A stretch of DNA of 42,145 nt from Halalkalirubrum salinum. GTDB taxonomy: Archaea > Halobacteriota > Halobacteria > Halobacteriales > Haloferacaceae. The stretch is taken from positions 1-42,145 of the forward strand of contig NZ_SRSG01000041.1 in NCBI RefSeq assembly GCF_005543295.1, given 5' to 3'. Positions 20,738 through 42,145 of this stretch are shown here, in pieces. Made by a program: the position numbers and the translations under genes. The notes under the pieces were generated by a model. That model saw nothing but the letters and a program-made list of their open reading frames with translations. It did not search any database and was not told the DNA's origin. Positions within the stretch are counted from its first letter, which is position 1. Each line of letters begins with the position of its first letter.

Positions 20738-20756
20738 ATTCGCTTAACCTAGTTTA

Positions 20757-23479: not shown

Positions 23480-23519
23480 AAACTCTTCGAAAATCATATC
23501 AAAATTCAGTAACTATTGT

Positions 23520-23790
23520 GAAGCCCGATATTATTCCTATCTACAACGATTCCACCGGCATCCGATCAATGCTTTATTTGCTTCTCGCCAAACCGCACCT
23601 CCAACGGCTACTGCATTATTTTTGTCGACAGCGACTCCACTATTCGTACTGCTGATTGCGCTCCTTTGTACGACAATGCCCGGATCACCCACTATAATGA
23701 GACGGACATCATCTATAGCTGTAATGCGTAGGTGTGTGAACAGACCCTCGACATTGTACAATCGATCGGTTAAATGGATTTCGTCTATGC
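23520..23790 (+). pseudogene. Possible degraded gene with internal stops
   Basis: One plus-strand frame from about 23530 to 23776 has coding-like composition and a CxxC (residues QCFICFSPNRTSNG). It is broken by a TAG near 23728 that would fit a C-to-T change in a CAG codon, after which VCEQTLDIVQSIG continues in the same frame up to a TAA. No start codon of the usual sort precedes it. A minus-strand frame over the same stretch is also open (23537-23761), so strand is uncertain. Family not recognised. Confidence 0.3.
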
Positions 23791-23851
23791 GTAATCAAGC
23801 CAAAAGCACAATCAGGCTTATCAATAGTTTGATCAGACACACACCACTATT

Positions 23852-25087
23852 TCAATCGTTCTGTCGCTTTCGGAGGCATCGATCGCGCAGAGTTTCGAGA
23901 TCGATCCCGTCGAACGCCTGTACGTCTCCGAGTGCTGAAAAGACGGTGTCAACGCACACAGCCAGCGTGTACTCGTAGAAGATTCCGCCTGCTCGGCCAC
24001 GGTTATGCTCACGCCGATCAAGCACGCCGAGCATCACGAGTTCGTTCAGATGGCTGTGAACACTTCGATCGCTCAGGGGCTCGCGATCGAGCTCCCGGGC
24101 GAACCGCTCGTAGCGGGTATAGATATCCAGCTTTTGTGCTGGAACAGCGCCTTCTACAGTCAACACTGCCATGGTGAAAAGCGTCAGATGGCCGTGGACC
24201 GTAAGATCAAGGAGACTCTGTTCAATCTGTCGTTTCTCCAAGAGCTGTTGACCACGACGTACATCTGCTTCGGTGACTCGTTCACGATCATTGCGCCGGG
24301 CAAGGTCACCAGCCTCGAATAACAAATCAAGCGCTTGGCGTGCACTCCCGCGATCCTGTGCAGCGAACGCGGCGCACAGCGGCACCACCTCAGAATCAAG
24401 GACATCGTCTCGAAAGGCGAGGGCAGACCGCCGCTCCAAGATCGCCTGGAGGTCGGTTGCGTCGTAGGGTGGGAAGTGGATTTCGCGCTCACAGAGAGTG
24501 TCCTCAACTCGGGGGTCAAGGTTCTCGCGGAATTTGAAATCGTTGCTGATTCCGACAATGCCGATCTTCGCATCTTTAAGATATCCGTTTGCGCGTGCAC
24601 GTGGAAGCTGGTACAGAATCGAATCGTCGTCTCCGATCTGGTCGACCTCGTCAAGAACGACGAGTATTGTCCCGCCGAGCGCTTCTAACTCGGAGTACAG
24701 CTTGTTGTACACCTCATTAAGTGGATACCCGGTGGAACTGAGTTGGTTGTTCTTTGTTCGGAGTTGATTCGTCAGTTCGATCGCTACCTGATAGCTTGAG
24801 GTGAGATCCTCACAGTTACAGTAGATTGTCGTTATAGAGAGATCCTCATACTGCTCAGCGTCTCGTTCGAGATGATCAAGTAAGTACCGCGTCGCAGCCG
24901 TTTTACCGACACCAGTTTTCCCGTACAAGAAGATGTTCCGCGGCTGCTTACCATTAATAACCGGTTGGAGATATGCCTTGAACGCATCTAATTCGTCATC
25001 TCGTTCGGTCAGCCGTTTTGGTTGGTAATCCTCTCGGAGTATATCTTCGTCTTCAAAGATCGTCTGATCGCGTTCGAAGATCGGCAT
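23852..25087 (-). CDS. Orc1/Cdc6 replication initiator, second copy
   Basis: A 411-residue origin-recognition protein. The AAA+ domain has Walker A GKTGVGKT (56-63), Walker B LVVLDEVDQIGDDD, sensor-1 GISNDFKFRENLDPRVED, and the lid motif GSARQALDLLFEAGD. The C-terminal winged helix (about 310-400) contains SVHSHLNELVMLGVLDRRE. The first residues SxIFEDEDILREDYQP pattern (here QTIFEDEDILREDYQP) is typical. It is only distantly similar to the first orc in this window and carries its own box family nearby. A TATA-like GATATAAG (25114-25121, minus strand) lies about 30 bases upstream of the ATG at 25087. One box overlaps its stop codon (23836-23863). Confidence 0.93.
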   Translation of the reverse strand: MPIFERDQTIFEDEDILREDYQPKRLTERDDELDAFKAYLQPVINGKQPRNIFLYGKTGVGKTAATRYLLDHLERDAEQYEDLSITTIYCNCEDLTSSYQVAIELTNQLRTKNNQLSSTGYPLNEVYNKLYSELEALGGTILVVLDEVDQIGDDDSILYQLPRARANGYLKDAKIGIVGISNDFKFRENLDPRVEDTLCEREIHFPPYDATDLQAILERRSALAFRDDVLDSEVVPLCAAFAAQDRGSARQALDLLFEAGDLARRNDRERVTEADVRRGQQLLEKRQIEQSLLDLTVHGHLTLFTMAVLTVEGAVPAQKLDIYTRYERFARELDREPLSDRSVHSHLNELVMLGVLDRREHNRGRAGGIFYEYTLAVCVDTVFSALGDVQAFDGIDLETLRDRCLRKRQND

Positions 25088-25177
25088 CTATTCTAAACCA
25101 CCAGCCGAGGATACTTATATCTAGCCTTCAAACGTTTCAATTGTTTCAATCGTTTAGGTATGCGTATCTGTAAACGC

Positions 25178-25388
25178 ACACACCACTGTTTCAGTCGTTA
25201 CTCTCGCGGTGGATGTAGCAAATTAAGAACGATTGAAACAGTGGTGTGTTCTACTCAGTATCAAACTCGATCAAAATGACCTCGAAAACGATTGAAATAG
25301 TGGTGTGTTTCCCATCCTCATGTTCTCGATGAGTTGGCGATCAGAACCCTACACAGACGAATAAAACGATTGAAACGGTGGTGTGTCT
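25178..25388. repeat. Origin-recognition-box-like repeats, family 2
   Basis: Four copies of a box with consensus CGATTGAAACAGTGGTGTGT lie just upstream of the second orc gene: inverse at 25178-25200, direct at 25226-25250, 25285-25310 and 25363-25388. A fifth, inverse, is at 23836-23863 at the other end of the gene. The first two are arranged as an inverted pair around 25 bases. This is the geometry of an archaeal origin. The whole gap 25088-25433 holds no gene. Confidence 0.8.
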
Positions 25389-25433
25389 GTGGGGTAAAGT
25401 ATCTGCCTTCTTGACTGAGATCGCCCTTCCGGC

Positions 25434-26387
25434 CTATGCGATCGACATCTCCGACCCATCCTCATTCGATAACTCCCGCTTCGTCATCCCATATAGATAT
25501 CCAAACCCAACAGCCGCAGTAAACACGAAAATAGCAACTAATTGCTTCACCTTCGAAATTGACGGCTCACGCAACAACTCTTTCAGCCGCAGCGGCACGT
25601 ACGTGAACAACAGATCGAACAGGTACTCGTTTTTATCGCCGCTCGTCTCGGGTGAAATCTGGTCCATGATCCGTTTCGAGTACCCCTGCCAGAACGATCG
25701 CTCAACCAACCACCGGAAGTTGCCTCGATACTCGAACAGCGTGTGGTTCACAACCGCCGCCGTATTGTATAAGACACCCTTCCCAGTCAGATCACGAATC
25801 CGAACGCAGACGGGAGCTTCGTGCGCCTGAATGTGCCGATCGCCCTTTCGGCCCGTGTTCTCATCGTACCCCCCAACAGACAAGAACACGTCCCGTCTGT
25901 ACGAGATGTTTGAGCCGTAGGTATTCCGCAGTTCCTCCATGTGTTCGCCCATGCCGCGTTCGTCGCAGCCGACGAGCCAGTAGAACTCCTCGGGAAAGAA
26001 ATCCGGCTTCCCGCCGACCCAGTTCGGCTTCACGTGTCCGCCCACGGCAACCGCGTCGGTCCGCTCGTACGTTTCGACCAACCGATCGATCCAGTCGGGC
26101 TCTGCGACCCCGTCGTCGTCGATCATCGCGACGATCTCGCCCGACGCCAGCTCCGCGCCCTTCGTCCGCGAGTACGAAATCCCACGATTCTCGTCGTTGT
26201 TGTGGACCACGACGTTCTCAAGATCGCCGAAATCTTCCACCACCCGCTCGTACACCTCCGGATTACCGTCGATCACCAACACGACCTCGATCGGCTCGTA
26301 GGTCTGTGCGAGCGCGCTCTCGACAGCCTCCGTGAACACGTCGTATCGGTCCATCGTATATGTGCAGACGACGACGGAAACGTTCAT
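25434..26387 (-). CDS. aglG: AglG-like glycosyltransferase of N-glycosylation
   Basis: A 317-residue GT2 enzyme. The start MNVSVVVCTYTMDRYDVF, the DDD metal motif in AMIDDDGVAEPDW, and the stretch PDFFPEEFYWLVGCDERG are characteristic of AglG as I recall it from Haloferax volcanii, where it adds a hexuronic acid to the dolichol-phosphate-linked N-glycan. The segment GRKGDRHIQAHEAPVC and the WLVERSFWQGYSKR region also fit. One or two hydrophobic segments near the C-terminus (QLVAIFVFTAAVGFGYLYG) anchor it to the membrane. I moved the start six codons in, to the ATG at 26387. AglB lies 2 kb away, so this forms part of a dispersed agl set. Specificity is inferred from similarity. Confidence 0.85.
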   Translation of the reverse strand: MNVSVVVCTYTMDRYDVFTEAVESALAQTYEPIEVVLVIDGNPEVYERVVEDFGDLENVVVHNNDENRGISYSRTKGAELASGEIVAMIDDDGVAEPDWIDRLVETYERTDAVAVGGHVKPNWVGGKPDFFPEEFYWLVGCDERGMGEHMEELRNTYGSNISYRRDVFLSVGGYDENTGRKGDRHIQAHEAPVCVRIRDLTGKGVLYNTAAVVNHTLFEYRGNFRWLVERSFWQGYSKRIMDQISPETSGDKNEYLFDLLFTYVPLRLKELLREPSISKVKQLVAIFVFTAAVGFGYLYGMTKRELSNEDGSEMSIA

Positions 26388-26595
26388 GCTCGAGCGTTGA
26401 CGCAAACGGCGAATAAGGATTGTGTTTCACCGATGTGCGTTGTGTGTCACCGATATGCCGGCCGTTAGGTCATTGTCGATTCGAAGTGGGCGACACACCC
26501 CACTGGTTCCGCTGTTAACGCGTGTGAGGTAGGTGGTGATCTGTGCCAACAGAATGGTCTCGATCGCTCGACGACGAAAGAATCGACTACTACCA

Positions 26596-27114
26596 CTACG
26601 CCAATGGCGTGAGTAGATCAGTTAACCCACGTCGAACGCTCTCCGTGGACTGTGCAAGCTCATGGAGTTTGTACTTTCCGCCGCGTTTGCCGTGGTTTTT
26701 TTCGATCGAAGAAACGATACCCAGCGTCTCTAGTTCCGAGAGGTACTCACGGATTGCCCGGTTGGATATCGGGTTCGTTCCCTCCTGTGAGCAGATTGAC
26801 TCGTATGCTGGTCTAACCTCACGCGTTCGGGCAGGAGTCTGATCGCGCTCTGCGAGCACGGTTAACGCTAAAAGGACCAGTTTTCCGTGTGTTGGATAGT
26901 TTGCGATCCCCTGTACGACCTGATCTGTCTGTAGTCGCGAGTGCGCCTCTTGGACGTGGTCTTCGGTAACCCGCTCGGCGTTTCGTTCCCTTGCAATGTC
27001 GCCACTCTCAAGAAGCAGATCGAGTGCCTGCCTCGCGTCTCCCGAATCTTTCGCGCCGTCGGCAGTCCACGCGTGGATAAGCTCGAATTTCGTCTCGATT
27101 AACAGCGGAACCAC
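26596..27114 (-). pseudogene. C-terminal fragment of an Orc1/Cdc6 gene
   Basis: 172 residues from a GTG at 27114 match only the end of Orc1/Cdc6 proteins: the lid motif KDSGDARQALDLLLESGDIA and the winged helix with AIREYLSELETLGIVSSIEK. Walker A and Walker B are absent, so it cannot hydrolyse ATP. The piece before the lid (VVPLLIETKFELIHAWTADG) is partly scrambled. Upstream in frame the sequence runs into the neighbouring gene. It is a third orc relic. It could still bind DNA as a stand-alone winged helix, but no promoter supports that. Confidence 0.75.
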
Positions 27115-27134
27115 TGGGGTAGCGGTTCGGCGAG

Positions 27135-27749
27135 TTAGTAGTGAGTTTGCTCAACGATGTTCATGACGTCAGTTCGAAGTTCTTCAGGCGTTGTCCACGT
27201 GTTGAGGTGGCCCTTTTGATCCATGATGTCGAAGAGCGTTGCCATCATGGCATCATATTTTTCATATTCGAGATCGGAGTCGATAGCCAGATCGACGTAG
27301 TCGCGCTTGAATATGAAGGTGGTTTCGAGCGGGGCTTCGCCCAGCTCTAGTTCGTGGCCGCCGTCGTTGTCTTCAGCAATAAGTAGCGTGTAGTCTGTAC
27401 CGATGAGCGTGTAACGGAATTTGAGGTAGAAGTTCGACCAGTGTTCGTTTGTCTCGTCGAGATCGTCGAGCAGAATGGCGCTAGCAGGGAGCGGACTGTC
27501 GTTGATGATGTCACGTGTATCTTCAAGGCGGTCTTTCGGGCCGTCACGGTCGCCTGACGGGGTGTCGTAACTACCGAGAATAAAGTAAATGCTGTCGGAG
27601 ATGGTTTTCAATTCGAGTTCAGTAAAGAGTGAGAGGGCGTTGTCGTGGATCGTTTGAACCGCAGGACCAGTAAGGCCACTATAGATGAAGTCAGCGTCTC
27701 CGAGCCGAGGGGTATCTTGGATATGTGGTGGCGCATCCGTGTTTGCCAT
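27135..27749 (-). CDS. Hypothetical protein paired with a winged-helix regulator
   Basis: A 204-residue acidic soluble protein without signal peptide or membrane segment. Regions such as DADFIYSGLTGPAVQTIHDN and DYVDLAIDSDLEYEKYDAMM resemble a haloarchaeal family found in accessory DNA, as far as I remember, but I know no function. It is divergent from a winged-helix regulator gene (start 27846), with 96 bases between, a layout common for a regulator and its target or a toxin-antitoxin-like pair. The orc fragment follows 20 bases behind its stop codon. Confidence 0.65.
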   Translation of the reverse strand: MANTDAPPHIQDTPRLGDADFIYSGLTGPAVQTIHDNALSLFTELELKTISDSIYFILGSYDTPSGDRDGPKDRLEDTRDIINDSPLPASAILLDDLDETNEHWSNFYLKFRYTLIGTDYTLLIAEDNDGGHELELGEAPLETTFIFKRDYVDLAIDSDLEYEKYDAMMATLFDIMDQKGHLNTWTTPEELRTDVMNIVEQTHY

Positions 27750-27845
27750 GGCTGTGAGAGGTATGATTGGCGGGTTATACGTTGAAGATTATGATTGTCG
27801 ATGACCGTCGCAAAACATATGTGGCTGGGCGTTGAATCTGTGTGT

Positions 27846-28343
27846 ATGTCACAGAATGCTTCCTCGGCTGCAACACGTCCCGGAGGAGAGGGCGGGGCAG
27901 ACCAGTTGGTAGACCATGACGTGGATCCTGATCGTCTCGCTGATCTGCGGGCAATCTTGGTTGAGCCGAAGGCCCGGCTCCTCCAGCAAATTTTAGCCAG
28001 TCCCACGGGAGCACTGAGTGCCGTGGAGTTAGCGGCACGGAACAGGATTACTGAAAGTACGATCCGCGATCATTTGCGTGATCTCAACAATCGAGACTCG
28101 GAGATTGTGGCGGTGCTTGAGGCCGATGCCTCACCAGTTCCCAACGGAATTCCGAGAAAATACTACGCGGTCACTGCGTACGGAATCGACCTGTTGAAAC
28201 AGGTGAACCTCTATGAACAGATCGGGGTTCTCTATGATATGTACGAGGCTGCCGAGTTAGAGCTCCCAGATTGTGATGAGCGATCGGTTACGATCGCTGC
28301 GATCGAAGCGTACGAACACCGGCCGTCGCCGGAGTGGATTTAA
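27846..28343 (+). CDS. Winged-helix transcriptional regulator
   Basis: A 165-residue DNA-binding protein. After a disordered N-terminus (to about residue 30) comes a winged helix-turn-helix: DLRAILVEPKARLLQQILAS, then LSAVELAARNRITESTIRDH as the recognition-helix region and a wing around VLEADASPVPNG. The C-terminal half has YYAVTAYGIDLLKQVNLYEQ, a conserved segment in this haloarchaeal regulator family (related to phage-repressor-like proteins in accessory regions). I chose the ATG at 27846; earlier in-frame starts are unconserved. It probably controls itself and the divergent hypothetical gene. Confidence 0.8.
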   Translation: MSQNASSAATRPGGEGGADQLVDHDVDPDRLADLRAILVEPKARLLQQILASPTGALSAVELAARNRITESTIRDHLRDLNNRDSEIVAVLEADASPVPNGIPRKYYAVTAYGIDLLKQVNLYEQIGVLYDMYEAAELELPDCDERSVTIAAIEAYEHRPSPEWI

Positions 28344-28492
28344 CATCCCACGCATTGTGCTGCATCGATAGTCGCGCAAGTTTGAGCAGTTTGTAAGTTC
28401 GAGCGGTTCTATTTTATTACGTATGACACACCCAGCGAATGCACTCGAGATACCCTGCCACCGATCGCCGCACAGATCACAATATAACAAGG

Positions 28493-28499
28493 CTTATTT
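28493..28499 (+). promoter_or_regulatory. TATA-like box of aglB
   Basis: CTTATTT lies 28 bases before the aglB ATG at 28524 in the context AAGGCTTATTTC. This fits a leaderless transcript and supports the start. Confidence 0.4.
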
Positions 28500-28523
28500 C
28501 CGATTTGCTATTCGTTCAACCCA

Positions 28524-31500
28524 ATGAGTACGCGAAGCGATCGCGACGGGTTGGAGGGATCCGCCCTGGATATCATCGAACGATGGTATCAGATCCCTGT
28601 CCTCGTGGCAATTATGACATTCTCGTTGGCCGTACGGCTACAGAGTTACGAGAACTTCCTGAGTAACGGCGAACCGCTGTTCGGCGGTAACGACCCGTGG
28701 TATCACTACCGAGAGACCTCCTATGTAGTCGAGAACTTCCCGTTCACGATGCCGTTCGATCCGTGGACAAACTATCCCTCTGGACACAACCCTGAGCAGT
28801 TTGGGACGCTTGTCGACCAGATCGTCGGCGGGGCAATCCTCGCCCTGGGACTCGGAGATCCAACGAGCCAACAGGCGGCGATCGTGATGGTAATCGCCGC
28901 GCCCGTGATGGCGACACTCGCACTTATTCCCGCGTACGTCCTCGCGCGCCGGTTCACCGGCAAGTTCCCAGCCCTCATTGGCGTGGGCGTGATCGCCCTC
29001 CTGCCCGGTACGTTCCTCAACTACAGTCTCGCAGGCTTTTACGACCACCACGCGTTCGAGGTGTTCTTCCAGACGATCGCCGTCCTCGCGTTCATCGTTG
29101 CCCTCTCGATTGCCGAGCGCGAAAAACCCATTTGGGAGCTCGTGATCGATCGCGACGTCGAGGCGCTCAAACGCCCGGTTGCCTATAGCGCCCTCGCGGG
29201 CGTCGCAGCGGGACTGTACATGTGGGCGTGGCCGCCGGGCATCCTCCTTGTCGGCTTCACTGGCATCTTCTTCGCGCTGAAGATCACCACCGACGTCTAC
29301 CACAGCGACAGCCCCGAGCCAATCGCGTTCGTCGGCGCCGTCTCACTGACCGTCACCGGCCTTATGATGCTCGTCCCGCTCAACCAGTTCTCGATCGGCG
29401 GTGCGACGAGCTACTCTCTCCTGCAGGTACTGCTCCCGATCGCTGTCGCCGCCGGCTGTGTCTTCCTCGCGTTCCTTGCTCGCGAGTGGGAACAAAGAGA
29501 GCAGACCGAGACTGCCTACGTCGCCACCGTCTTCGGGCTGATCGTCGCGTCGATCATCGTCGTCCGGTTCGCGATTCCGAGCCTCTACCGGACGATCGAG
29601 GGCAACGTCCTGAACATCATCGCGTTCAGCGCCTCTGACACAACTCAGACGATCGGCGAGGCGCAAGCGTTCCTCACGAGCAACCCGAGAGCCAGCCCTT
29701 TCGAGATTATCTTTTACGAATACGGTCTGGCATTCATCACAGCCGTCGCTGCCGCACTATACCTCATCGGCCGCCCACTGTACGCGAGCGACGACACCAG
29801 CGACACCATCTATCTCGTGAGCGGTGTCGCCCTCATCGGCCTCGTCCTCGCTGCATTCCCGACGTTCTCGGGCGCCTTCGAGGCGATCGGGATTAGCTGG
29901 CAGTTGCTCGGACTCGCGATCGCGCTCGCACTACTGATCGGCGCGGCCCTTCGCGTCCAGTACGATGCCGCCACATTCTATCTCCTCACGTGGGCAGGAT
30001 TCATCACCGCCTCGGCGTTCACCCAGACGCGATTCAACTACTATCTGGCGATCGTGGTTGGCATTCTCAACGCGATTTTCATCGCGGAGATCCTCGGCTA
30101 CCTCGATTTCCGCGGCTCACCCCGAGAGGTTATCGACGGCATCGAAGGCTGGCAGGTGATGGCAGTCGTCACCGCATTCTTGCTCATCACCGCGCCGCTC
30201 GTCTTCGCGGTCCCGACGACCGCGTGGGACCGTGGCGCAGAGTCGGCGAACCAACCCGGCGAGGTCGTCGCGTGGGACGACAGCATGGACTTCCTCGAAG
30301 AGGAGACGCCCGCCCCCGGCGAACTCGAAGGTCACGACAACCGAATGGAGTACTACGGCACCTACGACATCCCAGAAGGCGATCACGACTACCCTGAAGG
30401 CGCGTACGGCGTCCAATCCTGGTGGGACTATGGGCACTGGATAACCACCCAGGGCGAGCGGATTCCGAACGCGAACCCGTTCCAGCAGGGCGCGACCGAG
30501 GCAGCGAACTACCTCCTTGCACCGAGTGAGGATCGCGCTGAAACCGCACTAGAGGAAAAGATGGGCGAGACGGGCGAAACGCGCTACGTCATGGTTGACT
30601 GGCAGATGGTTTCGCCGGCTTCGAAATTCAGCGCTCCGGTCGTCTGGTACGATGAGGAGGACATCTCTCAGGGCGACTTCATCCAATCGGCCTATCCACA
30701 GCAGGGCGAGCAGTTCGGCCAGCCGATTTCGTTACGCGAGCAGCGCTACTACGAGAGCCAGATGGTTCGACTCTACGAGTTCCACGGCAGTGCAGTCGAT
30801 CCTTCGCCGATCGTCACCGAGACCCAACAGCAGAACGTCGAGACACAGGCGGGCGACCAGGTGACGATCGACGCGATCGACGCCGAAGATGGAATCCAGG
30901 AGTTCGATAGCGTCGAAGCAGCGCAAGAGTACGCTGATGAAAATCCTGGCGCACAGGTGGGCGGAATTGGGCCGAATCCACAGGAACGCGTTGCGGCCCT
31001 CGAGCACTACCGGCTCGTCAAATCCGCCCAGAGCCCGGCAAGTTTCAGCAACTCAGACTTCCAACAGCAACTCCAACTAATGCAGCAGGCTAACGTCTCC
31101 GAGCAGTACCTCACCCGAACCAGTCCACAGTGGGTCAAGACGTTCGAGCGGGTCCCCGGCGCGACCGTCGAGGGTAGTGGGGCCCCCGCAGGAAGCGAGG
31201 TCACCGCACAGGTACAGATGCGCGATCAGACCACCAATTCGACGTTCCCGTACGTGCAGCACGCGACAGCAGACGAAGACGGGAACTTCGAGATGACGCT
31301 GCCGTACTCGACGACCGGCTACGACGAGTTCGGTCCCGAGAACGGGTACACGAACGTAAGTGTCACCGCTGAAGACGAATACACTTTCACGGCGGTCGAC
31401 GAGGACGCGAACACCTCTGAGAATCCCCTCGCCGGTCAATTGGTTGGCAATGCGGCTGTTGAAGAAGCCCAGGTCGTCGGCGAGGACGACTCGTCGGTGA

Positions 31501-31673
31501 CTGTCGAACTGGAAACGCCCGAAATGGAGACCGAAGGCAACGAGTCTACGAGCGAATCGATCGACGGTGAGAGCGAACTCACCGATTCGGACCGTGAGTC
31601 ACATTCAGACCGTACATTGCAGTCCGCCCATAAGTCGCTCACTGCACCCGCTGAGGTACGGGCGATCGCCTAA
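28524..31673 (+). CDS. aglB: AglB oligosaccharyltransferase (STT3 family)
   Basis: A 1049-residue enzyme that transfers the dolichol-phosphate-linked glycan to Asn of Asn-X-Ser/Thr sites in S-layer glycoprotein and other exported proteins. The N-terminal half has about 13 membrane segments. The first extracytoplasmic loop has the catalytic-metal motif GGNDPWYHYR (54-63). The soluble C-terminal half begins near 570 and has the hallmark WWDYG at 633-637. A beta-rich region with Ser/Thr follows. The last 50 residues are Ser/Glu-rich (ESTSESIDGESELTDSD). Length is normal for haloarchaeal AglB. The next gene, DUF368, starts three bases past the stop, so the two share a transcript. Confidence 0.97.
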   Translation: MSTRSDRDGLEGSALDIIERWYQIPVLVAIMTFSLAVRLQSYENFLSNGEPLFGGNDPWYHYRETSYVVENFPFTMPFDPWTNYPSGHNPEQFGTLVDQIVGGAILALGLGDPTSQQAAIVMVIAAPVMATLALIPAYVLARRFTGKFPALIGVGVIALLPGTFLNYSLAGFYDHHAFEVFFQTIAVLAFIVALSIAEREKPIWELVIDRDVEALKRPVAYSALAGVAAGLYMWAWPPGILLVGFTGIFFALKITTDVYHSDSPEPIAFVGAVSLTVTGLMMLVPLNQFSIGGATSYSLLQVLLPIAVAAGCVFLAFLAREWEQREQTETAYVATVFGLIVASIIVVRFAIPSLYRTIEGNVLNIIAFSASDTTQTIGEAQAFLTSNPRASPFEIIFYEYGLAFITAVAAALYLIGRPLYASDDTSDTIYLVSGVALIGLVLAAFPTFSGAFEAIGISWQLLGLAIALALLIGAALRVQYDAATFYLLTWAGFITASAFTQTRFNYYLAIVVGILNAIFIAEILGYLDFRGSPREVIDGIEGWQVMAVVTAFLLITAPLVFAVPTTAWDRGAESANQPGEVVAWDDSMDFLEEETPAPGELEGHDNRMEYYGTYDIPEGDHDYPEGAYGVQSWWDYGHWITTQGERIPNANPFQQGATEAANYLLAPSEDRAETALEEKMGETGETRYVMVDWQMVSPASKFSAPVVWYDEEDISQGDFIQSAYPQQGEQFGQPISLREQRYYESQMVRLYEFHGSAVDPSPIVTETQQQNVETQAGDQVTIDAIDAEDGIQEFDSVEAAQEYADENPGAQVGGIGPNPQERVAALEHYRLVKSAQSPASFSNSDFQQQLQLMQQANVSEQYLTRTSPQWVKTFERVPGATVEGSGAPAGSEVTAQVQMRDQTTNSTFPYVQHATADEDGNFEMTLPYSTTGYDEFGPENGYTNVSVTAEDEYTFTAVDEDANTSENPLAGQLVGNAAVEEAQVVGEDDSSVTVELETPEMETEGNESTSESIDGESELTDSDRESHSDRTLQSAHKSLTAPAEVRAIA

Positions 31674-33363: not shown

Positions 33364-34038
33364 CTACACCGAGGAGTCGATCGATCGAAGCACCGAAAGC
33401 GTTCCATCGAAGTACGACTCCCCAAGGACGGTATCCGCAGCGGCCTTCGCTCGATCGTCTGCGTTTGCGACTGCGTATGATTCGCCGGCGACCTCGAACA
33501 TGGAGGCGTCGTTCTCGCTGTCGCCGATCGCGACGAACGACGCCACATCAACACCTAGCAGTTCGGCCATTGTCTCCAATCCCACCCCTTTCTCAACGCC
33601 GGGCGTTTTGACGTGAAACGCGTAGCCCGTGTCGACGACCGAGAGGTCAAACTCGGCGGCGACCTCCCGCAGCAGGGCTTCGTCGGCGTCGATCGAAACC
33701 GCGAGTTCGGTCTCTCGCCAGCGGTTCGTTGTGTCGACCGTTCCGTAGCCAACCGCACCACCACGATCGACGAATGCCTCGATCGCCGCGGCTGCCCGAT
33801 CCGGATCGCCAGTGAATCGAAGCGTGTCCTCGCCGTAGACGACCCCGCCGTTTTCGGCGATCACACGCTCTTCGATCCCAATAAAGTGACACAGCGCGAC
33901 AGGGTACGGAAACGACTTCCCTGTCGCCATCACAACTGGGCCGTCCCACCCAGAGAGAGCGTCGAACACCCGCGGATCGATCGTGTGCTCGCTCGTCGTC
34001 AACGTCCCGTCGATATCCAACGCAAGCGGTGGGGCCAT
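33364..34038 (-). CDS. gph: Phosphoglycolate-phosphatase-type HAD hydrolase
   Basis: A 224-residue haloacid-dehalogenase phosphatase of the archaeal phosphoglycolate phosphatase/Cof type. Motif I is LALDIDGTL (D8 nucleophile, D10 acid), motif II is VVMATGKSF, motif III lysine is in PGVEKGVGLE, and motif IV is VAIGDSENDASMF. A cap domain of C2B type lies at about 80-150. It hydrolyses 2-phosphoglycolate or a related sugar phosphate. It is next to, but divergent from, the dha operon. Confidence 0.88.
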   Translation of the reverse strand: MAPPLALDIDGTLTTSEHTIDPRVFDALSGWDGPVVMATGKSFPYPVALCHFIGIEERVIAENGGVVYGEDTLRFTGDPDRAAAAIEAFVDRGGAVGYGTVDTTNRWRETELAVSIDADEALLREVAAEFDLSVVDTGYAFHVKTPGVEKGVGLETMAELLGVDVASFVAIGDSENDASMFEVAGESYAVANADDRAKAAADTVLGESYFDGTLSVLRSIDSSV

Positions 34039-34117: not shown

Positions 34118-35113
34118 ATGAAGAAACTGATCAACAATCCAGAAAACGTAGTCGACGAGATGCTCGAGGGGATGCTCGCAGCGTATCCCGATCGCCTCCG
34201 GCGGTTGGACGGCACCGATGTACTCGTCCGGGCGGACGGACCAGTCGACGGGAAGGTCGGCCTCGTCTCTGGGGGCGGCAGTGGCCACGAGCCGACCCAC
34301 GCCGGCTATATTGGCGACGGGATGTTAGACGGCGCTGCCGCAGGGCAGGTGTTCACGTCGCCGACTGCCGATCAACTCAGCGAGATGATCCAGGCGTGTG
34401 ACGCCGGCGAAGGCGTGCTCAACATCGTCAAAAACTACGAGGGCGACGTGATGAACTTCGAGACGGCCGCTGAGATGGCCGACATGGAGGGGATCGAAGT
34501 CGAACAGGTCGTCGTCAACGACGACGTGGCCGTCGAGGATTCGCTGTACACCTCCGGGCGACGTGGGGTCTGTGGAACGATCCTCGTCCACAAGGCCGCT
34601 GGTGCGAAGGCTGCCGCAGGCGGAGATCTCAGCGAGGTCAAAGCCGTCGCCGAGAAGGTGATCGACAACGTTGGGACGATGGGAACTGCGCTCACCTCGT
34701 GTGTCACCCCAGATAAGGGAGAGCCAACCTTCGACCTCGGCGAAGACGAAATCGAACTCGGGATCGGAATCCACGGCGAGCCGGGAACCGAACGGGTCGA
34801 CGTGATGAGCGCCGACGAGATCACCGAAGAGCTGACCCAGAACGTTCTCGAGGATCTGGCTCTCGATGAGGGCCAAGAGGTGATGACGATCGTCAACGGG
34901 ATGGGCGGCACCCCGCTCATGGAGCTGTTCGTCGTCAACCGCAAACTCCAGGAAATTATCGGCGATCACGGCCTCGAGACCTGGGACAGCTGGGTCGGCG
35001 ACTACATGACGTCGCTCGATATGATGGGCTGTTCGATCACTGTCTGTGCGGTCGACGAGGAGCTCAAATCGCTGCTTTCTGCGCCAGTCGATACGCCAGC
35101 CCTCAAGGGTTAG
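34118..35113 (+). CDS. dhaK: Dihydroxyacetone kinase subunit DhaK
   Basis: A 331-residue subunit that binds dihydroxyacetone covalently (hemiaminal) and receives phosphate from DhaL-ADP. H219 in GIGIHGEPG is the binding histidine, and GLVSGGGSGHEPTHAGYIG binds the substrate. The C-terminal NGMGGTPLMELFV region is typical. Length and order agree with PEP-dependent DhaK, not with the fused ATP-type enzyme. The gene leads dhaK-dhaL-dhaM; 84 bases separate it from dhaL. It feeds DHA from glycerol oxidation or from the environment into triose phosphate metabolism. The upstream region contains no clear TATA box. Confidence 0.96.
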   Translation: MKKLINNPENVVDEMLEGMLAAYPDRLRRLDGTDVLVRADGPVDGKVGLVSGGGSGHEPTHAGYIGDGMLDGAAAGQVFTSPTADQLSEMIQACDAGEGVLNIVKNYEGDVMNFETAAEMADMEGIEVEQVVVNDDVAVEDSLYTSGRRGVCGTILVHKAAGAKAAAGGDLSEVKAVAEKVIDNVGTMGTALTSCVTPDKGEPTFDLGEDEIELGIGIHGEPGTERVDVMSADEITEELTQNVLEDLALDEGQEVMTIVNGMGGTPLMELFVVNRKLQEIIGDHGLETWDSWVGDYMTSLDMMGCSITVCAVDEELKSLLSAPVDTPALKG

Positions 35114-35197
35114 AGAGAACCACCCAATCGATTCGACGCATTCGCACCCCACCATGCGGGCGCAAACGATTTACCCCCAACAGCCGAGCCAACAGAT

Positions 35198-35917
35198 ATG
35201 GCAGACGCCGACACGCAGCGCGAGGCTGTGTTGACCGCGATCGACCGTGTGGCCGATCGCCTCGAAGACGAACGATCGTATCTCACCGAACTCGATTCGG
35301 CGATCGGGGACGCAGACCACGGCTCGAACCTCTCGCGAGGGTTCCGTGCGGCCGCCGACGAGGTCGCAGACAGCGATGACGACGTCGGCGAGATCGTCAA
35401 GACGATCGGCGTCACGCTCATCTCGAAGGTCGGTGGCGCCTCAGGCCCGCTGTACGGCGGCTCGATCATGAGCGCGAGCCAGGAACTGGACGACGGACTC
35501 ACCGCTGACACGTCGATCGCGTTCGCGGAGGCGTACCTCCAGAAGGTGCTCGATCGCGGCGACGCGCGTGTAGGCGCGAAGACGATGGTCGACGCGCTGA
35601 CGCCGGCGGTCCACAGCTACAAGAAGTCGATCGAGGTCGACGACCTCCCGCCGCTGACCGCGTTCGCGAAGGCGGTCGAAGCCGCAGAAGCCGGCGTTGC
35701 GTTCACTGTACCGCTTCGCGCTGAAAAGGGCCGCGCGTCGTTTCTGGGGTGGCGATCGGTCGGCCACCAGGATCCTGGCGCGACCTCGACGCTGTTTATT
35801 ATGGAGGAACTCCTCGCCACAGCCGAACAGTACCTTGAGGGCGAGACGGACGTCGATGCAGCTGCGCCGACAGAGCCTGAAGCGGACCCCGACGAGATAG
35901 ACGGAGGCGACGCATGA
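35198..35917 (+). CDS. dhaL: Dihydroxyacetone kinase subunit DhaL (ADP-binding)
   Basis: A 239-residue subunit that carries ADP as a fixed cofactor; phosphorylation by DhaM renews ATP for transfer to DHA. The motif LDSAIGDADHGSNLSRGF (residues 32-49) holds the Mg-binding aspartates D33, D38 and D40. The VGGASGPLYG loop and DARVGAKTMVDAL are the nucleotide-contact regions. The tail adds about 25 acidic residues compared with bacterial DhaL (AAPTEPEADPDEIDGGDA), common in haloarchaea. A TTTAC-like element lies about 27 bases upstream, so it may have its own transcript as well. Its stop overlaps the dhaM start by four bases (ATGA). Confidence 0.95.
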   Translation: MADADTQREAVLTAIDRVADRLEDERSYLTELDSAIGDADHGSNLSRGFRAAADEVADSDDDVGEIVKTIGVTLISKVGGASGPLYGGSIMSASQELDDGLTADTSIAFAEAYLQKVLDRGDARVGAKTMVDALTPAVHSYKKSIEVDDLPPLTAFAKAVEAAEAGVAFTVPLRAEKGRASFLGWRSVGHQDPGATSTLFIMEELLATAEQYLEGETDVDAAAPTEPEADPDEIDGGDA

Positions 35918-36294
35918 TCGGACTCGTTGTGGTCTCACATAGCCAGAAGGCTGCCGAGGGAATCTGTGAGATCGCCGCCCAGATGGGTGGGAAGGCCCCG
36001 ATCGAACCCGCCGGCGGCGACGACGGCGAGATCGGCACTGATACTACGACAATCAAAAACGCGATCGAATCGGCCGATGACGGCCAGGGGGTCGTCGTAC
36101 TCGTCGATCTCGGCAGCGCCGTGATGAACGCCGAGTTGGCGATCGAAATGGGAGACACACAAGCGGTCATCGCGGACGCTCCGGTGCTGGAAGGCGCGCT
36201 CAACGCCGCAGTCGAAGCGACCAACGACGCGGCGACAATGGATTCCGTCGTCGAAAAGGCCGAAGATGCGCGCGAGTATCACAAAGTGAACTGA
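35914..36294 (+). CDS. dhaM: DhaM, PTS EIIA-type phosphocarrier for DHA kinase
   Basis: A 126-residue protein consisting only of the EIIA-mannose-type domain. H9 in GLVVVSHSQKAAEGI is the phosphorylated histidine. The bacterial E. coli DhaM carries extra HPr- and EI-like domains; those are absent, so this short form must take phosphate from the separate HPr encoded at 39344-39613. The VVVLVDLGSAVMNAELA segment is the conserved second half of the fold. It is translationally coupled to dhaL through a four-base overlap. It hands phosphate to ADP bound on DhaL. Confidence 0.95.
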   Translation: MIGLVVVSHSQKAAEGICEIAAQMGGKAPIEPAGGDDGEIGTDTTTIKNAIESADDGQGVVVLVDLGSAVMNAELAIEMGDTQAVIADAPVLEGALNAAVEATNDAATMDSVVEKAEDAREYHKVN

Positions 36295-36310: not shown

Positions 36311-36703
36311 TCACGCGTACGTCTTATCAAACTCACGTTCCCGACGCATGAGCTCCTCGACGCCGTGTTCGAGGATACCGCGACCCATGCCTGTCGGTCG
36401 ATAGTACGTATAGAAACCCTGGCTGTCAGCGGTCCGCCGCTGGCGCTTATCGACGAGTCCGACACTAACCAGTTCGTCGAGATGATAGTGGAAGTTGGAA
36501 GATTCGACATCCACTGCGGCCTTGAGCTTAGCAGCGCTCAGTTCATCGTTGGCGACAAGCGTACGCAGAATTCGAAATCGAGTCGGGTGACCGATCGCCT
36601 GTTGCATCGAGAGGTACTCTTCAAGCGTTAGCCCGCTCTCTTCGGGCAGCGGCGGCTCCGGCTGGCGCACGTCATCTGGTTGATGGCGATCGGCTTCGGA
36701 CAT
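36311..36703 (-). CDS. Winged-helix (ArsR-like) regulator beside the dha operon
   Basis: A 130-residue regulator. The winged helix lies at about 30-110: QAIGHPTRFRILRTLVANDE, then LSAAKLKAAVDVESSNFHYH as recognition helix and HLDELVSVGLVDKRQRR. The C-terminal RGILEHGVEELMRREREFDK is a family tail. I use the ATG at 36703; a GTG at 36736 is in frame and adds MHPNNGAESSQ, and AATATTC at 36758-36764 would fit a leaderless start at that GTG. The gene ends 17 bases past dhaM on the opposite strand and may regulate the dha/pts genes. No binding site is apparent. Confidence 0.8.
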   Translation of the reverse strand: MSEADRHQPDDVRQPEPPLPEESGLTLEEYLSMQQAIGHPTRFRILRTLVANDELSAAKLKAAVDVESSNFHYHLDELVSVGLVDKRQRRTADSQGFYTYYRPTGMGRGILEHGVEELMRREREFDKTYA

Positions 36704-36780
36704 CTGGGAACTCTCTGCTCCATTATTTGGGTGCACTCTACTTAGTCATTCTCAACTAGAATATTCCTGAAAACACCGAT

Positions 36781-36790
36781 ATTTATATAC
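36781..36790 (+). promoter_or_regulatory. TATA box of the 36815 gene
   Basis: ATTTATATAC is centred 29 bases before the ATG at 36815 and is followed by GC-rich sequence. This marks a likely leaderless start. Confidence 0.6.
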
Positions 36791-36814
36791 TGTCGCTCCG
36801 AACAACTGCGTCGA

Positions 36815-37483
36815 ATGCGGCAACGAATTATCGATAACCTCCCTCACCAAGCCGATAATTCAGCCGCTCTCGCGCCAGTCCGTCGGGAACAGTTTCTCGT
36901 CTACCTGATGGGACCATACCGAACATTCGACGTCGACACATTGCTCCCAGCGGATGTCAACGTCGAAACCGATACGCCATCGTTTGCGACGTGGGACGAA
37001 ACCAGCGGCGAGTACGCTGAGGACGAAGTCTTACGCCTTCTCCAAGAGACGCGAGACTGTCTCCGTGAGCGTGGATTCAACGCCTTCCTGGCAATTGACG
37101 TTGGGATTCCGCTTGAAGAGATTGATGCAGCCACCCAGAGTATTGCCTTTGCACAGGCGAGTAACGCAACAATTTTTATTGCGCCACAGGTCGGCGACAA
37201 TCTCGGTGTCGGAATTGAAATCGGAAGTGTCCTCGAGGATCTCTTGTCAACAGCTGAAATGCATGGATCGGCGGCCGACGCGACTCCGCCTGAAGACACA
37301 CGACGAGTAATGGTTGCGACTGAACCATCGGTTCGAAGTGCAATGCTCGGTGCTGTTAACACACGCTGGGATGCGAGCGTTCGGAATTTTACAGATGTCG
37401 AAGACTGCTGTCGACTCTGTGCCCAATTCTGTACCCACATTCAAAACGAGGAACGCTACGGTTCGCTTAGTCTTCTGAACTGA
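36815..37483 (+). CDS. Haloarchaeal hypothetical protein (DUF7509-like)
   Basis: A 222-residue acidic protein, soluble, no signal peptide. Conserved-looking parts are REQFLVYLMGPYRTFDVD near residue 25, RDCLRERGFNAFLAIDVGIP and ASNATIFIAPQVGDNLGVG, the pattern of a Rossmann-like/TIR-like or nucleoside-deoxyribosyltransferase-like alpha/beta fold (first strand YLMGPY, then a strand ending in FIAP, then an IEIGS helix). I recall it as a DUF7509-type haloarchaeal family; no activity is established. A clear TATA box lies upstream. It is flanked by the dha and pts genes, but nothing in its sequence ties it to them. Confidence 0.7.
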   Translation: MRQRIIDNLPHQADNSAALAPVRREQFLVYLMGPYRTFDVDTLLPADVNVETDTPSFATWDETSGEYAEDEVLRLLQETRDCLRERGFNAFLAIDVGIPLEEIDAATQSIAFAQASNATIFIAPQVGDNLGVGIEIGSVLEDLLSTAEMHGSAADATPPEDTRRVMVATEPSVRSAMLGAVNTRWDASVRNFTDVEDCCRLCAQFCTHIQNEERYGSLSLLN

Positions 37484-37543: not shown

Positions 37544-39337
37544 TCACTCAAGACCGATCGCCGATCGCACGTCTGCACGCGTCTCACATGCGACAACATC
37601 AGCGGCGAGCGCTTCGGCTTCCGTCCGATCGATGTCTCGAACGGCTCGTTTGACATCCGGAATCGTCACCGCACTCATACTCAGTTCGTCGATACCAAGC
37701 CCCACCAGCAGCGCCGTGAGTGCTGGATCGCCGGCCATCTCACCGCACATGCTGACCCACGCGTCCCCAGACGCCTGTACCGTTTGATCGATCGCCCGAA
37801 TCACTGCGGGCGCGAGCGGGTCATGATAGTCGTCCATCCGATCGAGGTCGCGCTGCGCGGCCAGCACGTACTGCGTGAGGTCGTTCGTCCCGATACTGAG
37901 GAAGTCGACCCGATCGGCGAACGCGTCTGCGAGCATGACCGAGGCGGGCGTTTCGATCATCACTCCCAACTCGGGAACGGCTGCATCGACACCCTCGGCG
38001 TTCAGCTCCGCAACGATCTCGTGCACCCGATCGATCGCCGCATCCAGTTCCTCGACTGTCGAGACGAGCGGGAACATGACCGCGAGGTGCTCGCCGACGG
38101 CTGACCCGGCGACTCGACACAGCGCGCGCAGTTGTGTCTCGAAGAGCCCAGCGTGTTCTTCAAGTGACAGTCTGATCCCACGCGCGCCGAGGAAGCCGTT
38201 TTCGATGGGATCGAGTCCGAGGTAGTCGATCGGCTTGTCGCCACCGATGTCTGCGGTTCTGACGACGACGTGGCCACCCGCCGCCGCACACCGATCGGCG
38301 AACGCCGCACAGACCTCGTGGTACGCCTCGTACTGTTCGTCTTCGGTGGGTGGCTCTCCGCGATCGAGAAAGAGAAACTCCGTTCGGAACAGTCCAACGC
38401 CGTCTGCACCAGCGTCGATCGCCGGGGCGGCCTCCGTAGGCGATCCGAGGTTTGCGGCCACCTCGATCGACGTTCCGTCAGCGGTCTCGACCGCATCGTG
38501 GATCGCGGCGGCTGCCGTATCCTCACTGTAGGTCTCGATCGTCTCTGCGTCGGGGTCGATCACGATCCGTCCTGACTCGCCGTCGACCGCAACGGTTACA
38601 CCGACGTCGACCTCGAACAGCCCCGCGCCGACGCCGACAACCGCCGGGATACCGAGCGATCGGGCGATGATCGCCGCGTGGGATGTCCGCCCGCCTTTTG
38701 CGGTGACCACCCCGGCGATTGCCTCTGGATCGAGTTGGGCAGTGTCGCTTGGGGTGAGCCGATCGGCGAGTACCACCGTCCCATCGGCGAGCGCCGAGAG
38801 ATCTCTCCGGTCAGCACCCGAAAGAATTCGGAGTAATCGATCACGAACGTCCCGTAGGTCGTCTGCACGCTCGGCCATCATTCCGTCCATTCCCTCGAAC
38901 TGCTCGATCGGCCCCGCAAACGCGTCCCACACGGCTGTCTCGGCGCTCTTGCCCGCTTCGATCGCTTCCTCGACGCTGGATTCGATCGTCGGATCCAACA
39001 GGAACTGTTTGTGCGCGTCGAATACCTCCGCTTCAGACTCGCCGACCCGTTCGGCGGTTCGCTCGCGTTCCACGTCCAGTTCCGCGACCGCCGCCTCAGT
39101 GGCCGCTTCGAAGCGATCGACCTCCGCGGCCGGCGACTCGGACGCCCGCTCGTGGTGGTCGACCGCCGACGACTCGGCTGTCCGCTCGTGGTAGGCTGTA
39201 TCGTTCGATCTGTCGGTGTCGTCAGCGTCGTCAGCATCGTCAGCATCCTCGGCGTCTTCGGACTCGCGATCGACCCAGACAACAGTTCCGACCCCGCGCC
39301 GTGGCGTCGCCCCGACACCCGAAAGGGTTCGTGACAT
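37544..39337 (-). CDS. ptsI: PTS enzyme I (PEP-protein phosphotransferase)
   Basis: A 597-residue cytoplasmic enzyme that takes phosphate from PEP. H220 in GGRTSHAAIIARSLGIPAVV is the phosphorylated histidine; the PEP-binding half has GVGLFRTEFLFLDR, VVRTADIGGDKP, VMIETPASVMLAD and SIGTNDLTQYVLAAQRD, with C in MCGEMAGDP at the PEP site. The N-terminal domain carries an acidic insertion at about residues 24-70 (EDADDADDADDTDRSND and more), which moves the active His 31 residues relative to the E. coli enzyme. It follows ptsH by six bases and is co-transcribed with it. No sugar EIIBC permease is in the window, so its likely client is DhaM. Confidence 0.96.
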   Translation of the reverse strand: MSRTLSGVGATPRRGVGTVVWVDRESEDAEDADDADDADDTDRSNDTAYHERTAESSAVDHHERASESPAAEVDRFEAATEAAVAELDVERERTAERVGESEAEVFDAHKQFLLDPTIESSVEEAIEAGKSAETAVWDAFAGPIEQFEGMDGMMAERADDLRDVRDRLLRILSGADRRDLSALADGTVVLADRLTPSDTAQLDPEAIAGVVTAKGGRTSHAAIIARSLGIPAVVGVGAGLFEVDVGVTVAVDGESGRIVIDPDAETIETYSEDTAAAAIHDAVETADGTSIEVAANLGSPTEAAPAIDAGADGVGLFRTEFLFLDRGEPPTEDEQYEAYHEVCAAFADRCAAAGGHVVVRTADIGGDKPIDYLGLDPIENGFLGARGIRLSLEEHAGLFETQLRALCRVAGSAVGEHLAVMFPLVSTVEELDAAIDRVHEIVAELNAEGVDAAVPELGVMIETPASVMLADAFADRVDFLSIGTNDLTQYVLAAQRDLDRMDDYHDPLAPAVIRAIDQTVQASGDAWVSMCGEMAGDPALTALLVGLGIDELSMSAVTIPDVKRAVRDIDRTEAEALAADVVACETRADVRSAIGLE

Positions 39338-39343
39338 TTGAGG

Positions 39344-39613
39344 TCACTCCTCGACTGTCGTCGAGAGAATGGCTTCCAGCGCGTCGAGTGCGGCCTCGGC
39401 GTCGCTCCCCTCGGCTGTCAACACCACCTCTTCACCGCCTTTGACGCCCAGCCCAGTCACTGCAAGCATGCTGTCGGCTGCGACGGCCGACCGAGAGCCG
39501 TCCGCAGGTGCAACCGTTACTGTTGCGTCGTACGTGCCGGCAGTCTCAACGAACGTTGCGGCTGGCCGCGCGTGCAGGCCGTCTTCGGGAACTACGGTTA
39601 CGACTCGTTCCAT
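39344..39613 (-). CDS. ptsH: PTS phosphocarrier protein HPr
   Basis: An 89-residue HPr. H14 in DGLHARPAATFV is the phosphorylated histidine, and S48 in ADSMLAVTGLGVKGGEEV is at the place of the regulatory serine. The start is the ATG at 39613, which aligns with known HPr; an upstream in-frame codon at 39637 adds an unconserved eight residues. It shuttles phosphate from EI to DhaM. The operon order ptsH-ptsI is on the minus strand, and the fusion transducer lies just upstream, ending 69 bases before. Confidence 0.95.
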   Translation of the reverse strand: MERVVTVVPEDGLHARPAATFVETAGTYDATVTVAPADGSRSAVAADSMLAVTGLGVKGGEEVVLTAEGSDAEAALDALEAILSTTVEE

Positions 39614-39682
39614 ACCCCAAGGATGACGGGAAGACAATTATATGTATACGAGAGCGGTACGGCCGACGAACAACAGCCGTGG

Positions 39683-42145
39683 TCACTCTGCGTAGGATTC
39701 AAGTTGCTGTTCGACTTGCGCGTTGAGACGATCGAGCCCTGCCTCGACGCCCATCGACTCGACGTCAGCATACGCGTTGGCGACGATCGTCCGGACCGTA
39801 TCGAAGGGGCCGATGCGTGCCCCGCGAGTCGCAACGGTCCGATCGCTCGCGAGCAACTGTTCGATTGCGACCTCGTAGCCAGGGTTCGCCTCAAACCAGC
39901 CGTCCCGTCTGAGCGATCGAACGGCATCCTCGTGAACCGGCAGATAGCCAGTTTCGGTGTGCCAGCGGACCTGCTGGGCGGGTTCGGCTAGCCACGCGAG
40001 GAACTCACCTGCGGCGGCCTGTTCGGCGGTCGAGGCAGTCTTGGGAACCCACAGCGAGCCGCCACCGACGACGACGCCGGCACGACCGGCCGCCGCAGGC
40101 AGTGCCGCAACACCCAACGAGAATGGAACCCGATTGCGGATCGATCCGAGCGACGATGCCGAACCGATCAGCATTGCGGCATCGCCTTCAACGAATTGCC
40201 GTTTCGCCTCTCCGCGGGCCTCGATCCCCGGATTCTCATAGAGCTCGGCGTCGTCCATTGCAGTCCACCACTCGTACAGTTTGTGTGCTGCATCGCTGTC
40301 GAAGTACGCCGTCCTCGGGGTTCCTTCGTGGCCGTTGGCTGCGTCAACGATCGGCTGATCGGCAGCTGCGAGCCACTGCTCGACGAACCACGAGTAGTTC
40401 GCGAACGTGATGCCGGTCGGGCAGACACCTGCGTCGACGATCGCCTCACTCGCGTCGACAACTGCATCGTATGTCGCTGGCGGCCTATTGGGATCGAGCC
40501 CTGCGGTCTCGAAGGCGTCGCGATTGTAACACAACACTGGCACCGAGGAGTTGAACGGCATCGAACAGAGCTGTCCGTCGACACGATAGTAATCGGCGAT
40601 CGGATCGAGGTACGCCGCTGTGGATCCAGATGGCAACAGCGACGCAACTGGCGTAAATAGCCCGCTGTCGACCGCGCGGGCGGTACCAATCTCGTATAGT
40701 TGGGCGATTACCGGGCCTTCACCGCGCTCGACGGCGGCAAGCGTCGTCTCAAAAGTGTCACGGTAGCTGCCCTGTGACCGCGGCACGATCGCAACATCCT
40801 CGTGGTCCGCCGTAAATTCCTCAGCGAGCGATTCAACCAAGACCCCTTTATCACCACCCATCGCGTGCCAGAATTCGACCACAGTGTCGACATCTTCTGC
40901 GGCGGTGTTGGCTGTCGTCTCAAATCCAGCTATTGTCCGTTCGAGTGTGTCGATCCGTTCGGTGAGCGTCGTGACGCTCGTGGACGCCTCCGAAACCGAC
41001 GTCGAGTGGTTCGTCATCGTTGTGGAGACTGCTTCAGCGTTCCTTGCAGTGTCGCTCGCTAAGTCGTCGACGTTCTCGACCATACCCGCCGCCTCCTGGA
41101 GGGAGTTCGCTTGGTCGTCAGTTGCCTCGCTGATCTCTTGAACGCCACCGTTTGTTTCTTCGATCTCGGCGGCAATCTCGTCGAACGTTTCGGCTGCTTG
41201 CTCGACCGTTTCTGCACCCGATTCGACCTGCACTGCGGTTTCTCGCATCTCACTGAGCGTCTGGCTGGTCTCAGTTTTGACCGCGTCAACCGATTGTTCG
41301 ATTGCCGTTGCTGCTTCCTCGGCATCTTCAGCTAGTGATTTGACCTCTTCGGCTACGACCGCAAACCCCTCACCAGCCTCACCCGCGCGGGCAGCCTCGA
41401 TCGAGGCGTTCAACGCGAGGATATTCGTCTGGCCAGCGACCTCGGTAATAAATGCAGCGCTCTCTTCGATCGCGTCGACCCGCTCGTTGAGTGATTCGAT
41501 CGATTCGAGCACGGTCTCTGTCCGCGTGGTGATCGCCGCCAGTTCCTCGCGGGCGTCTCGTGCGGCTTTCTCTCCACGCTGGCCCTTTTCGAAGACTGCC
41601 TCCGAGGTTGTTGCGACCTCCTCGGCGGAGGATGCGATCTCCTCTGTGGCTGCAGAAAGCCCTCTGATTTCAGCACTGAGCGCTGAAATCATCTGCTGTT
41701 GCTCGGTCACATCGCCGGTGATGGCTTCGGTCGATCGTGCGGCCTCCCGGCTGGCCTCGGTAATCGACTCCATTCGATCATCGACTTGCGTTGTTGCACC
41801 AATCACCTGTGCTCCGACGCCAGAGACGTCGTTGACGGTCGATTCGTACGCACTCACGAGGTCGTTAAACGCCTCAGCGGCAGCCACCGCTTGCGCATCG
41901 GCAGTACCGAGATCTGCTCGAACGGTTAGATCACCATCGGCGGCGGCACGGAGCTTTTCGGTCAGCGTCTCGAGCGCTTTGGAGTCGATCTCAGCTGGCT
42001 CTTCGATCGTCTCGGATGTGTGAACATCTCTGATCGGTTTGGTTGTGTTAGAATCTTCAGTCGGTTTGGTTGTGTCAGAATCTTCAGTCGGTTTGGTTGT
42101 GTCAGAATCTTCAGTCGGTTTGGTTGTGTCAGAATCTTCAGTCGG
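39683..42145 (-). CDS. Chemotaxis transducer fused to a UgpB-like solute-binding domain (partial)
   Basis: The frame is open at the right edge of the window, so the N-terminus is missing; 820 residues are visible. Order: four [18 protein letters not shown] repeats (1-36); a HAMP-like helix pair, [20 protein letters not shown] (about 55-74); the methyl-accepting signalling coiled coil (about 90-410) with hairpin tip [20 protein letters not shown] at 237-256; then from about residue 420 a family-1 solute-binding domain. The latter follows the E. coli glycerol-3-phosphate binding protein UgpB from memory: [55 protein letters not shown] and [10 protein letters not shown]. No lipobox or membrane segment is visible, so the binding domain should lie in the cytoplasm. 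It may report glycerol phosphate status to CheA/CheW. Confidence 0.85.
42035..42142. repeat. 27-base tandem repeat inside the transducer gene, four copies
   Basis: Units at 42035-42061, 42062-42088, 42089-42115 and 42116-42142 are identical but for one base in the first. In the minus-strand reading frame each encodes PTEDSDTTK (the variant PTEDSNTTK in the first), and the repeat probably goes on beyond the window. It forms a flexible acidic Thr/Ser-rich linker in the protein. Confidence 0.95.

Follow-up and report, generated by a model that had tools for sequence, protein, structure and literature searches.

A haloarchaeal chemoreceptor family with an internal UgpB-type binding domain: candidate sensors of glycerol phosphate

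Introduction

Nutrient-binding proteins of the UgpB kind normally work outside the cell. UgpB, the binding protein of the UgpBAEC transporter (CUT1 family; structures 4aq4 and 9lff), contacts the phosphate of its ligand through Tyr64, Ser143, Ser266 and Tyr342 and the hydroxyls through Glu88, Gly303 and Arg393, while Trp188 and Trp191 serve as a clamp (PMC12718374). UgpB of Phaeobacter binds both G1P and G3P in one pocket, and the two Trp residues have been tied to these small ligands and not to glycerophosphocholine, which is larger (PMC12718374).

Binding proteins also take part in haloarchaeal chemotaxis. In BasT/BasB and CosT/CosB of Halobacterium salinarum a separate external binding protein is paired with a transducer that has two membrane helices (PMC3579733). 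Car (Htr11), of the same species, is a cytoplasmic arginine transducer (cited in PMC3579733). PacP of Pectobacterium is a chemoreceptor for phosphorylated C3 compounds, including G3P, and senses them outside through a periplasmic sCache_2 domain (PMC12395807); chemoreceptors of the TlpD type are cytoplasmic in bacteria (PMC6715182).

Here we describe a gene at one end of a 42,145-bp stretch of Halalkalirubrum salinum DNA (the window), which is the whole of contig C46. Its binding domain is predicted to fold like UgpB (TM up to 0.91) and keeps eight of the nine ligand contacts, but lies behind an MCP domain, has neither an export signal nor adjoining permeases, and carries Asn or Thr (among its relatives) in place of Trp188. 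It resembles BasT and CosT as a putative case of binding-protein-based chemotaxis, and differs in that the binding domain is internal and part of the same chain, with no external transducer domain. Car, like most relatives of the window fusion, is a haloarchaeal transducer without membrane helices, and its ligand, arginine, is also metabolised; the ligands differ, and in this comparison, made by description and not by sequence, PMC3579733 mentions no binding-protein domain in Car. The TlpD type is likewise a cytosolic MCP, with a different sensor module and ligand, and the window fusion has no Pfam match to the sCache_2 domain of PacP. Among open-licence papers we found no described MCP-UgpB fusion, no UgpB-type domain as an internal chemoreceptor sensor and no haloarchaeal glycerol receptor. 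Periplasmic G3P receptors (PacP) and cytoplasmic arginine receptors (Car) are already known.

Results

A signalling domain and a binding domain in one reading frame

The fusion frame consists of 820 open codons and has no 5' end within the window (Table 1). Pfam places MCPsignal (PF00015) at residues 194-362 (E = 1e-37) and SBP_bac_8 at residues 440-756 (E = 5e-42), and in the AlphaFold model of the whole frame a HAMP-like helix leads into a long helical hairpin (residues 84-406, turn near residue 254) and then into the binding domain. The Pfam HAMP model has no match in the window fusion; relatives score weakly, just under the cut-off. A consensus-like methylation site (a motif match) precedes the hairpin tip by 50-100 residues in all 53 fusions tested. 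A reading of the window made from sequence only had placed a HAMP-like segment, an MCP hairpin and a binding domain in a single frame, and the intact reading frame, Pfam and AlphaFold bear this out. That the two halves were brought together by a frameshift or an assembly error is ruled out: the same domain order occurs at some 100 loci, and within large single contigs (contig C1 of genome G045, 3.3 Mb, and Haloarcula rara CP119785).

Table 1. Features of the window at and around the fusion gene (residues are those of the fusion frame).
Feature	Position	Strand	Basis or remark
27-bp tandem repeat, (PTEDSDTTK)n linker, assembly break point	42034..42145	-	same repeat opens contig C6
Chemoreceptor/UgpB fusion gene	39683..42145	-	5' end absent from window, rest on contig C6
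HAMP-like segment, residues 55-109	41819..41983	-	AlphaFold helix 55-69, connector, helix from 84
MCP coiled-coil hairpin, residues 84-406	40928..41896	-	Pfam MCPsignal 194-362 and AlphaFold
Methylation-site-like motifs (two), residues 164-180	41606..41656	-	pattern in 53/53 fusions tested
Conserved tip (presumed CheA/CheW contact), residues 233-265	41351..41449	-	sequence conservation
UgpB-type solute-binding domain, C-terminal, residues 420-820	39686..40888	-	PDB and structure matches, pocket residues
ptsH (haloarchaeal HPr)	39344..39637	-	45 bp downstream of fusion
ptsI (enzyme I)	37544..39337	-	Pfam
dhaK-dhaL-dhaM, PTS-dependent dihydroxyacetone kinase	34118..36294	+	domain matches
HAD-family phosphatase	33364..34038	-	conserved at locus

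The missing N-terminus was traced to contig C6. We join C46 to C6 on the basis of the repeat that they share and of the matching gene order in Natronocalculus and Halohasta; as each repeat unit (27 bp) spans exactly nine codons, the junction stays in frame. On C6 the fusion lies on the minus strand, with a start ATG at about C6:542, and the complete protein would have about 970 aa, varying with repeat number. It begins MSNRSQLAWVIHRHLNDDVW and continues with two hydrophobic stretches, IATAASTGILVSAAATATT and LASTIALSGLFGLFS, followed by the acidic repeat linker.

Distribution and origin

Homologues were sought at two levels, the window's family (170 genomes) and its order (392 genomes). Strong matches fell into two groups: long frames, mostly of about 800-1050 aa, with 46-71% identity, and ordinary binding proteins, mostly of about 440-550 aa, with identity of 48% or less. 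The fusion family comprises 105 rows and 69 distinct sequences. Among named genomes (best 80 of 172 matches) fusions occur in Haloferacaceae, Haloarculaceae and Natrialbaceae, and the bacterial UgpB matches listed there include none; the same domain order is thus found in other haloarchaea, in three families. When 87 binding domains were placed on a tree, the fusions grouped in a single clade (SH-aLRT 99). The family is old and of single origin, and the tree lends no support to several fusion events.

A sister species of the same genus (G006; L082:9813-10020) has lost the fusion: a remnant of a few dozen C-terminal codons stands between the AAA gene and ptsH, and the glp-AAA-pts-dha order is whole. 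Since this genome deleted the fusion yet kept its neighbours, the fusion is dispensable. In another genome (G165, L081) the gene appears broken, as two separate pieces and an internal stop, which would be a further loss.

The ligand pocket is that of UgpB

The binding half matches UgpB of Escherichia coli (4aq4, E = 8e-61) and of Phaeobacter (9lff, E = 5e-60) over the full domain. AlphaFold models the isolated domain with a pLDDT of 82, and the top Foldseek matches of this model are UgpB structures (6x84, 9lff and 4aq4; TM 0.80-0.91), so that domain search and structure prediction agree on a solute-binding fold. The blocks that the sequence-only reading had recognised as shared with UgpB were located at residues 425 (FWHAMGG), 529, 662 and 733. 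Against the NCBIfam UgpB equivalog the fusion scores 241 bits (residues 416-795), under the 411-bit cut-off, as does exported haloarchaeal UgpB, with 218 bits.

In the window fusion the residues that correspond to the UgpB contacts are Tyr461, Glu485, Ser534, Asn583 (Trp in UgpB), Trp586, Ser662, Gly695, Tyr734 and Arg785, and eight of the nine are invariant across the 69 distinct sequences. Against a background in which 54 of 386 columns are UgpB-like and at least 98% conserved, this has a hypergeometric p of 7e-7; a degenerate domain with a structural role only is ruled out by such invariance. The exception is the position of Trp188, with Asn in 57 sequences and Thr in 12, and affinity or ligand may therefore differ from that of UgpB. 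As exported haloarchaeal UgpBs also have Asn here, the loss is probably older than the fusion.

One subfamily of the exported haloarchaeal homologues (L094-L098, L014) has Ser at Glu88 and Gln, Ser or Gly at Arg393, which suggests a different ligand for these proteins; both positions can thus change along with the ligand.

Cellular location

The fusions of Halorubrum, Haloferax, Haloarculaceae and Natrialbaceae are without a membrane-type segment near the N-terminus, and no Tat or Sec export signal was found in any fusion whose N-terminus was seen. By comparison, all 18 exported haloarchaeal UgpB homologues examined carry a Tat lipoprotein signal (RR...C lipobox). From this difference we place the binding domain of the fusions in the cytoplasm, as had been argued from domain order, and reject an external binding domain. 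A stretch resembling a Tat lipobox (RRTRLLLGVLGAC) in one Halonotius N-terminus was dismissed, being absent from relatives.

The window's own clade (Natronocalculus, Halohasta, Halonotius) has one strong and one weaker N-terminal hydrophobic stretch, by hydropathy only. Their outer flanks are basic, there is almost no charge between them, and no external domain separates them, a pattern that fits a short hairpin with both ends inside. The description of the protein as a soluble transducer therefore holds for most relatives, but needs amending for this clade.

Gene neighbourhood

Beyond the fusion N-terminus, contig C6 encodes a Cdc6/ORC-like ATPase, a glycerol transporter candidate, glpK and glpA; with these genes on C6 and the pts and dha genes on C46, the fusion sits between a glycerol cluster and ptsHI-dhaKLM. 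The order in the window's clade is glpK> transporter> AAA> FUS> ptsH>, where FUS is the fusion. In Haloarcula and Halomicrobium it is glpA< FUS> glpK> transporter>, and the fusion directly separates glpA, which is divergent, from glpK, which runs in the same direction and begins about 60-130 bp further on. In Haloferax mucosum the distance to glpK is about 2.3 kb. By no means all fusions are linked to glycerol genes: linkage holds for 20 of 48 tree members and requires three changes on the tree. The 28 that are not near glycerol genes include the fusions of Halorubrum, of Haloferax other than H. mucosum, of Natrialbaceae and of Halapricum; for unlinked loci, greedy ORF calling of neighbours performed poorly in these high-GC genomes.

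The sequence-only reading had stressed neighbours that make DHA-phosphate. The genes ptsH, ptsI and dhaKLM do adjoin the fusion in the window, in Natronocalculus and in Halohasta, but such a neighbourhood occurs in a few genera only and not at the fusions of Haloarcula, Halorubrum and Natrialbaceae, whereas the link to glpK, glpA and the transporter is stronger, wider and conserved in two arrangements. In Halonotius and relatives (L049-L053) ptsH is retained beside the fusion, and the locus lacks ptsI and dhaKLM.

No permease or ABC ATPase gene lies beside the fusion, the neighbours being pts, dha and glp genes. The genome also encodes a separate, exported UgpB (on C3), first in an operon with two permease genes, an ATPase gene and a gene for a glycerophosphodiester phosphodiesterase, and this company points to glycerol phosphates as the ligand class. 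A second glycerophosphodiester phosphodiesterase, with a signal like that of twin-arginine lipoproteins, is encoded elsewhere at L013:12306-13127, near the ugp operon of that genome.

A family of predicted haloarchaeal glycerol transporters is encoded beside glycerol kinase (PMC3102087). The gene that separates glpK from the AAA gene (L009:2065-3114) encodes a membrane protein that has no Pfam or NCBIfam match and is, by position, a candidate member of that family. The Cdc6/ORC-like AAA ATPase (L009:767-1942) scores well under the cut-offs for replication proteins; at almost every glp locus seen it adjoins the transporter candidate, and it may regulate the glycerol cluster.

Proposed mode of action and alternatives

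The fusion is probably a cytoplasmic chemoreceptor for some glycerol phosphate, and we think it fairly likely that it serves as a chemotaxis transducer with an internalised domain of the UgpB type as its sensor. The link to glpK and glpA is stronger and more widely conserved than that to ptsHI-dhaKLM, and therefore, of the ligands named by the sequence-only reading (internal G3P, a glycerophosphodiester or DHA-phosphate), G3P or some other glycerol phosphate has more support than DHA-phosphate. On balance we favour G3P as the physiological ligand, reporting glycerol. Haloarchaea with the fusion would then probably locate glycerol through the internal glycerol phosphate made from it.

Glycerol would enter the cell and be converted by glycerol kinase to sn-glycerol-3-phosphate, which would close the C-terminal binding domain. 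This domain would follow directly on the C-terminal helix, at that end of the bundle which faces away from the CheA-binding tip; its closure would shift the attached end and so alter CheA activity at the far tip, and the cell would swim up glycerol gradients, a metabolism-dependent taxis. In the window's clade the hydrophobic hairpin would act as a membrane tether that leaves both functional domains inside, most relatives being soluble. The history to which we give somewhat better than even odds is a single early fusion in haloarchaea, which set an ABC-type binding protein behind a signalling domain and turned it into a cytoplasmic sensor of the glycerol kinase product. Exported binding proteins usually have affinities that are micromolar or better, and such an affinity, if kept, could saturate the domain in the cytoplasm.

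Archaea use G1P for their lipids. As UgpB accepts either G1P or G3P (PMC12718374), the fusion need not be selective for a catabolic signal, and the same architecture might instead sense G1P from lipid synthesis, or a glycerophosphodiester, and report lipid or phosphate status. The single pocket for both phosphates in Phaeobacter, the loss of Trp188 from a pair tied to the small ligands rather than glycerophosphocholine (PMC12718374) and the more than half of fusions that do not adjoin glycerol genes would all accord with this. We nevertheless judge it unlikely, given that the placement by glpK and glpA is conserved in two families and two arrangements, and that the hydroxyl-contacting Glu88, Gly303 and Arg393 are retained.

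A further question is whether the signalling half drives swimming at all. MCP outputs can vary and sequence does not show to which pathway a receptor is assigned, so that a Che-type pathway acting, for example, on gene regulation or cell shape could be the target. This is improbable. The hairpin tip, residues 233-265 of which we take from established MCP knowledge to be the CheA/CheW contact, is conserved in a 32-row alignment. CheA is encoded in the window's genome (G000:C8:7310-7480) and, within the window's family, in 44 of 45 genomes with the fusion against 88 of 125 without it (p = 4e-5, uncorrected for shared ancestry), in nearly all cases by one gene per genome.

That the receptor senses DHA-phosphate from the PTS-dependent DhaKLM kinase next door, as the window, Natronocalculus and Halohasta might suggest, is very improbable: that neighbourhood is missing from the Haloarcula, Halorubrum and Natrialbaceae fusions and reduced to ptsH in Halonotius, and the pocket retained is that of glycerol-phosphate binders. 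Least credible of all, to the point of being negligible, is an inverted topology with the binding domain exported, an idea prompted by the strong hydrophobic segment of the window's clade, which might be taken for a signal anchor, since most orthologues lack hydrophobic segments altogether, export would carry the CheA-binding tip outside as well, and the second stretch with its terminal Arg/Lys flank fits a hairpin; nor did hydropathy put the C-terminus outside.

The preferred reading, internal sensing of G3P, makes the fusion a concrete and testable receptor candidate in which ligand binding and signalling share one chain and the fold of an exported binding protein is re-used as an internal metabolite sensor; Haloarcula and Haloferax, two of the genera with the fusion, are tractable in the laboratory. 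If this reading is true, what guides glycerol taxis is metabolic flux rather than the glycerol outside.

Other genes of the window

The interval between dhaM and ptsI (36311-37483) holds an HTH gene and a DUF7509 gene, which were seen in this position in the window's genus alone. A further region (13781-31673) encodes, amid glycosyltransferases, a full Cdc6/Orc1 protein (23852-25087), together with an AglB-type oligosaccharyltransferase (28524-31673).
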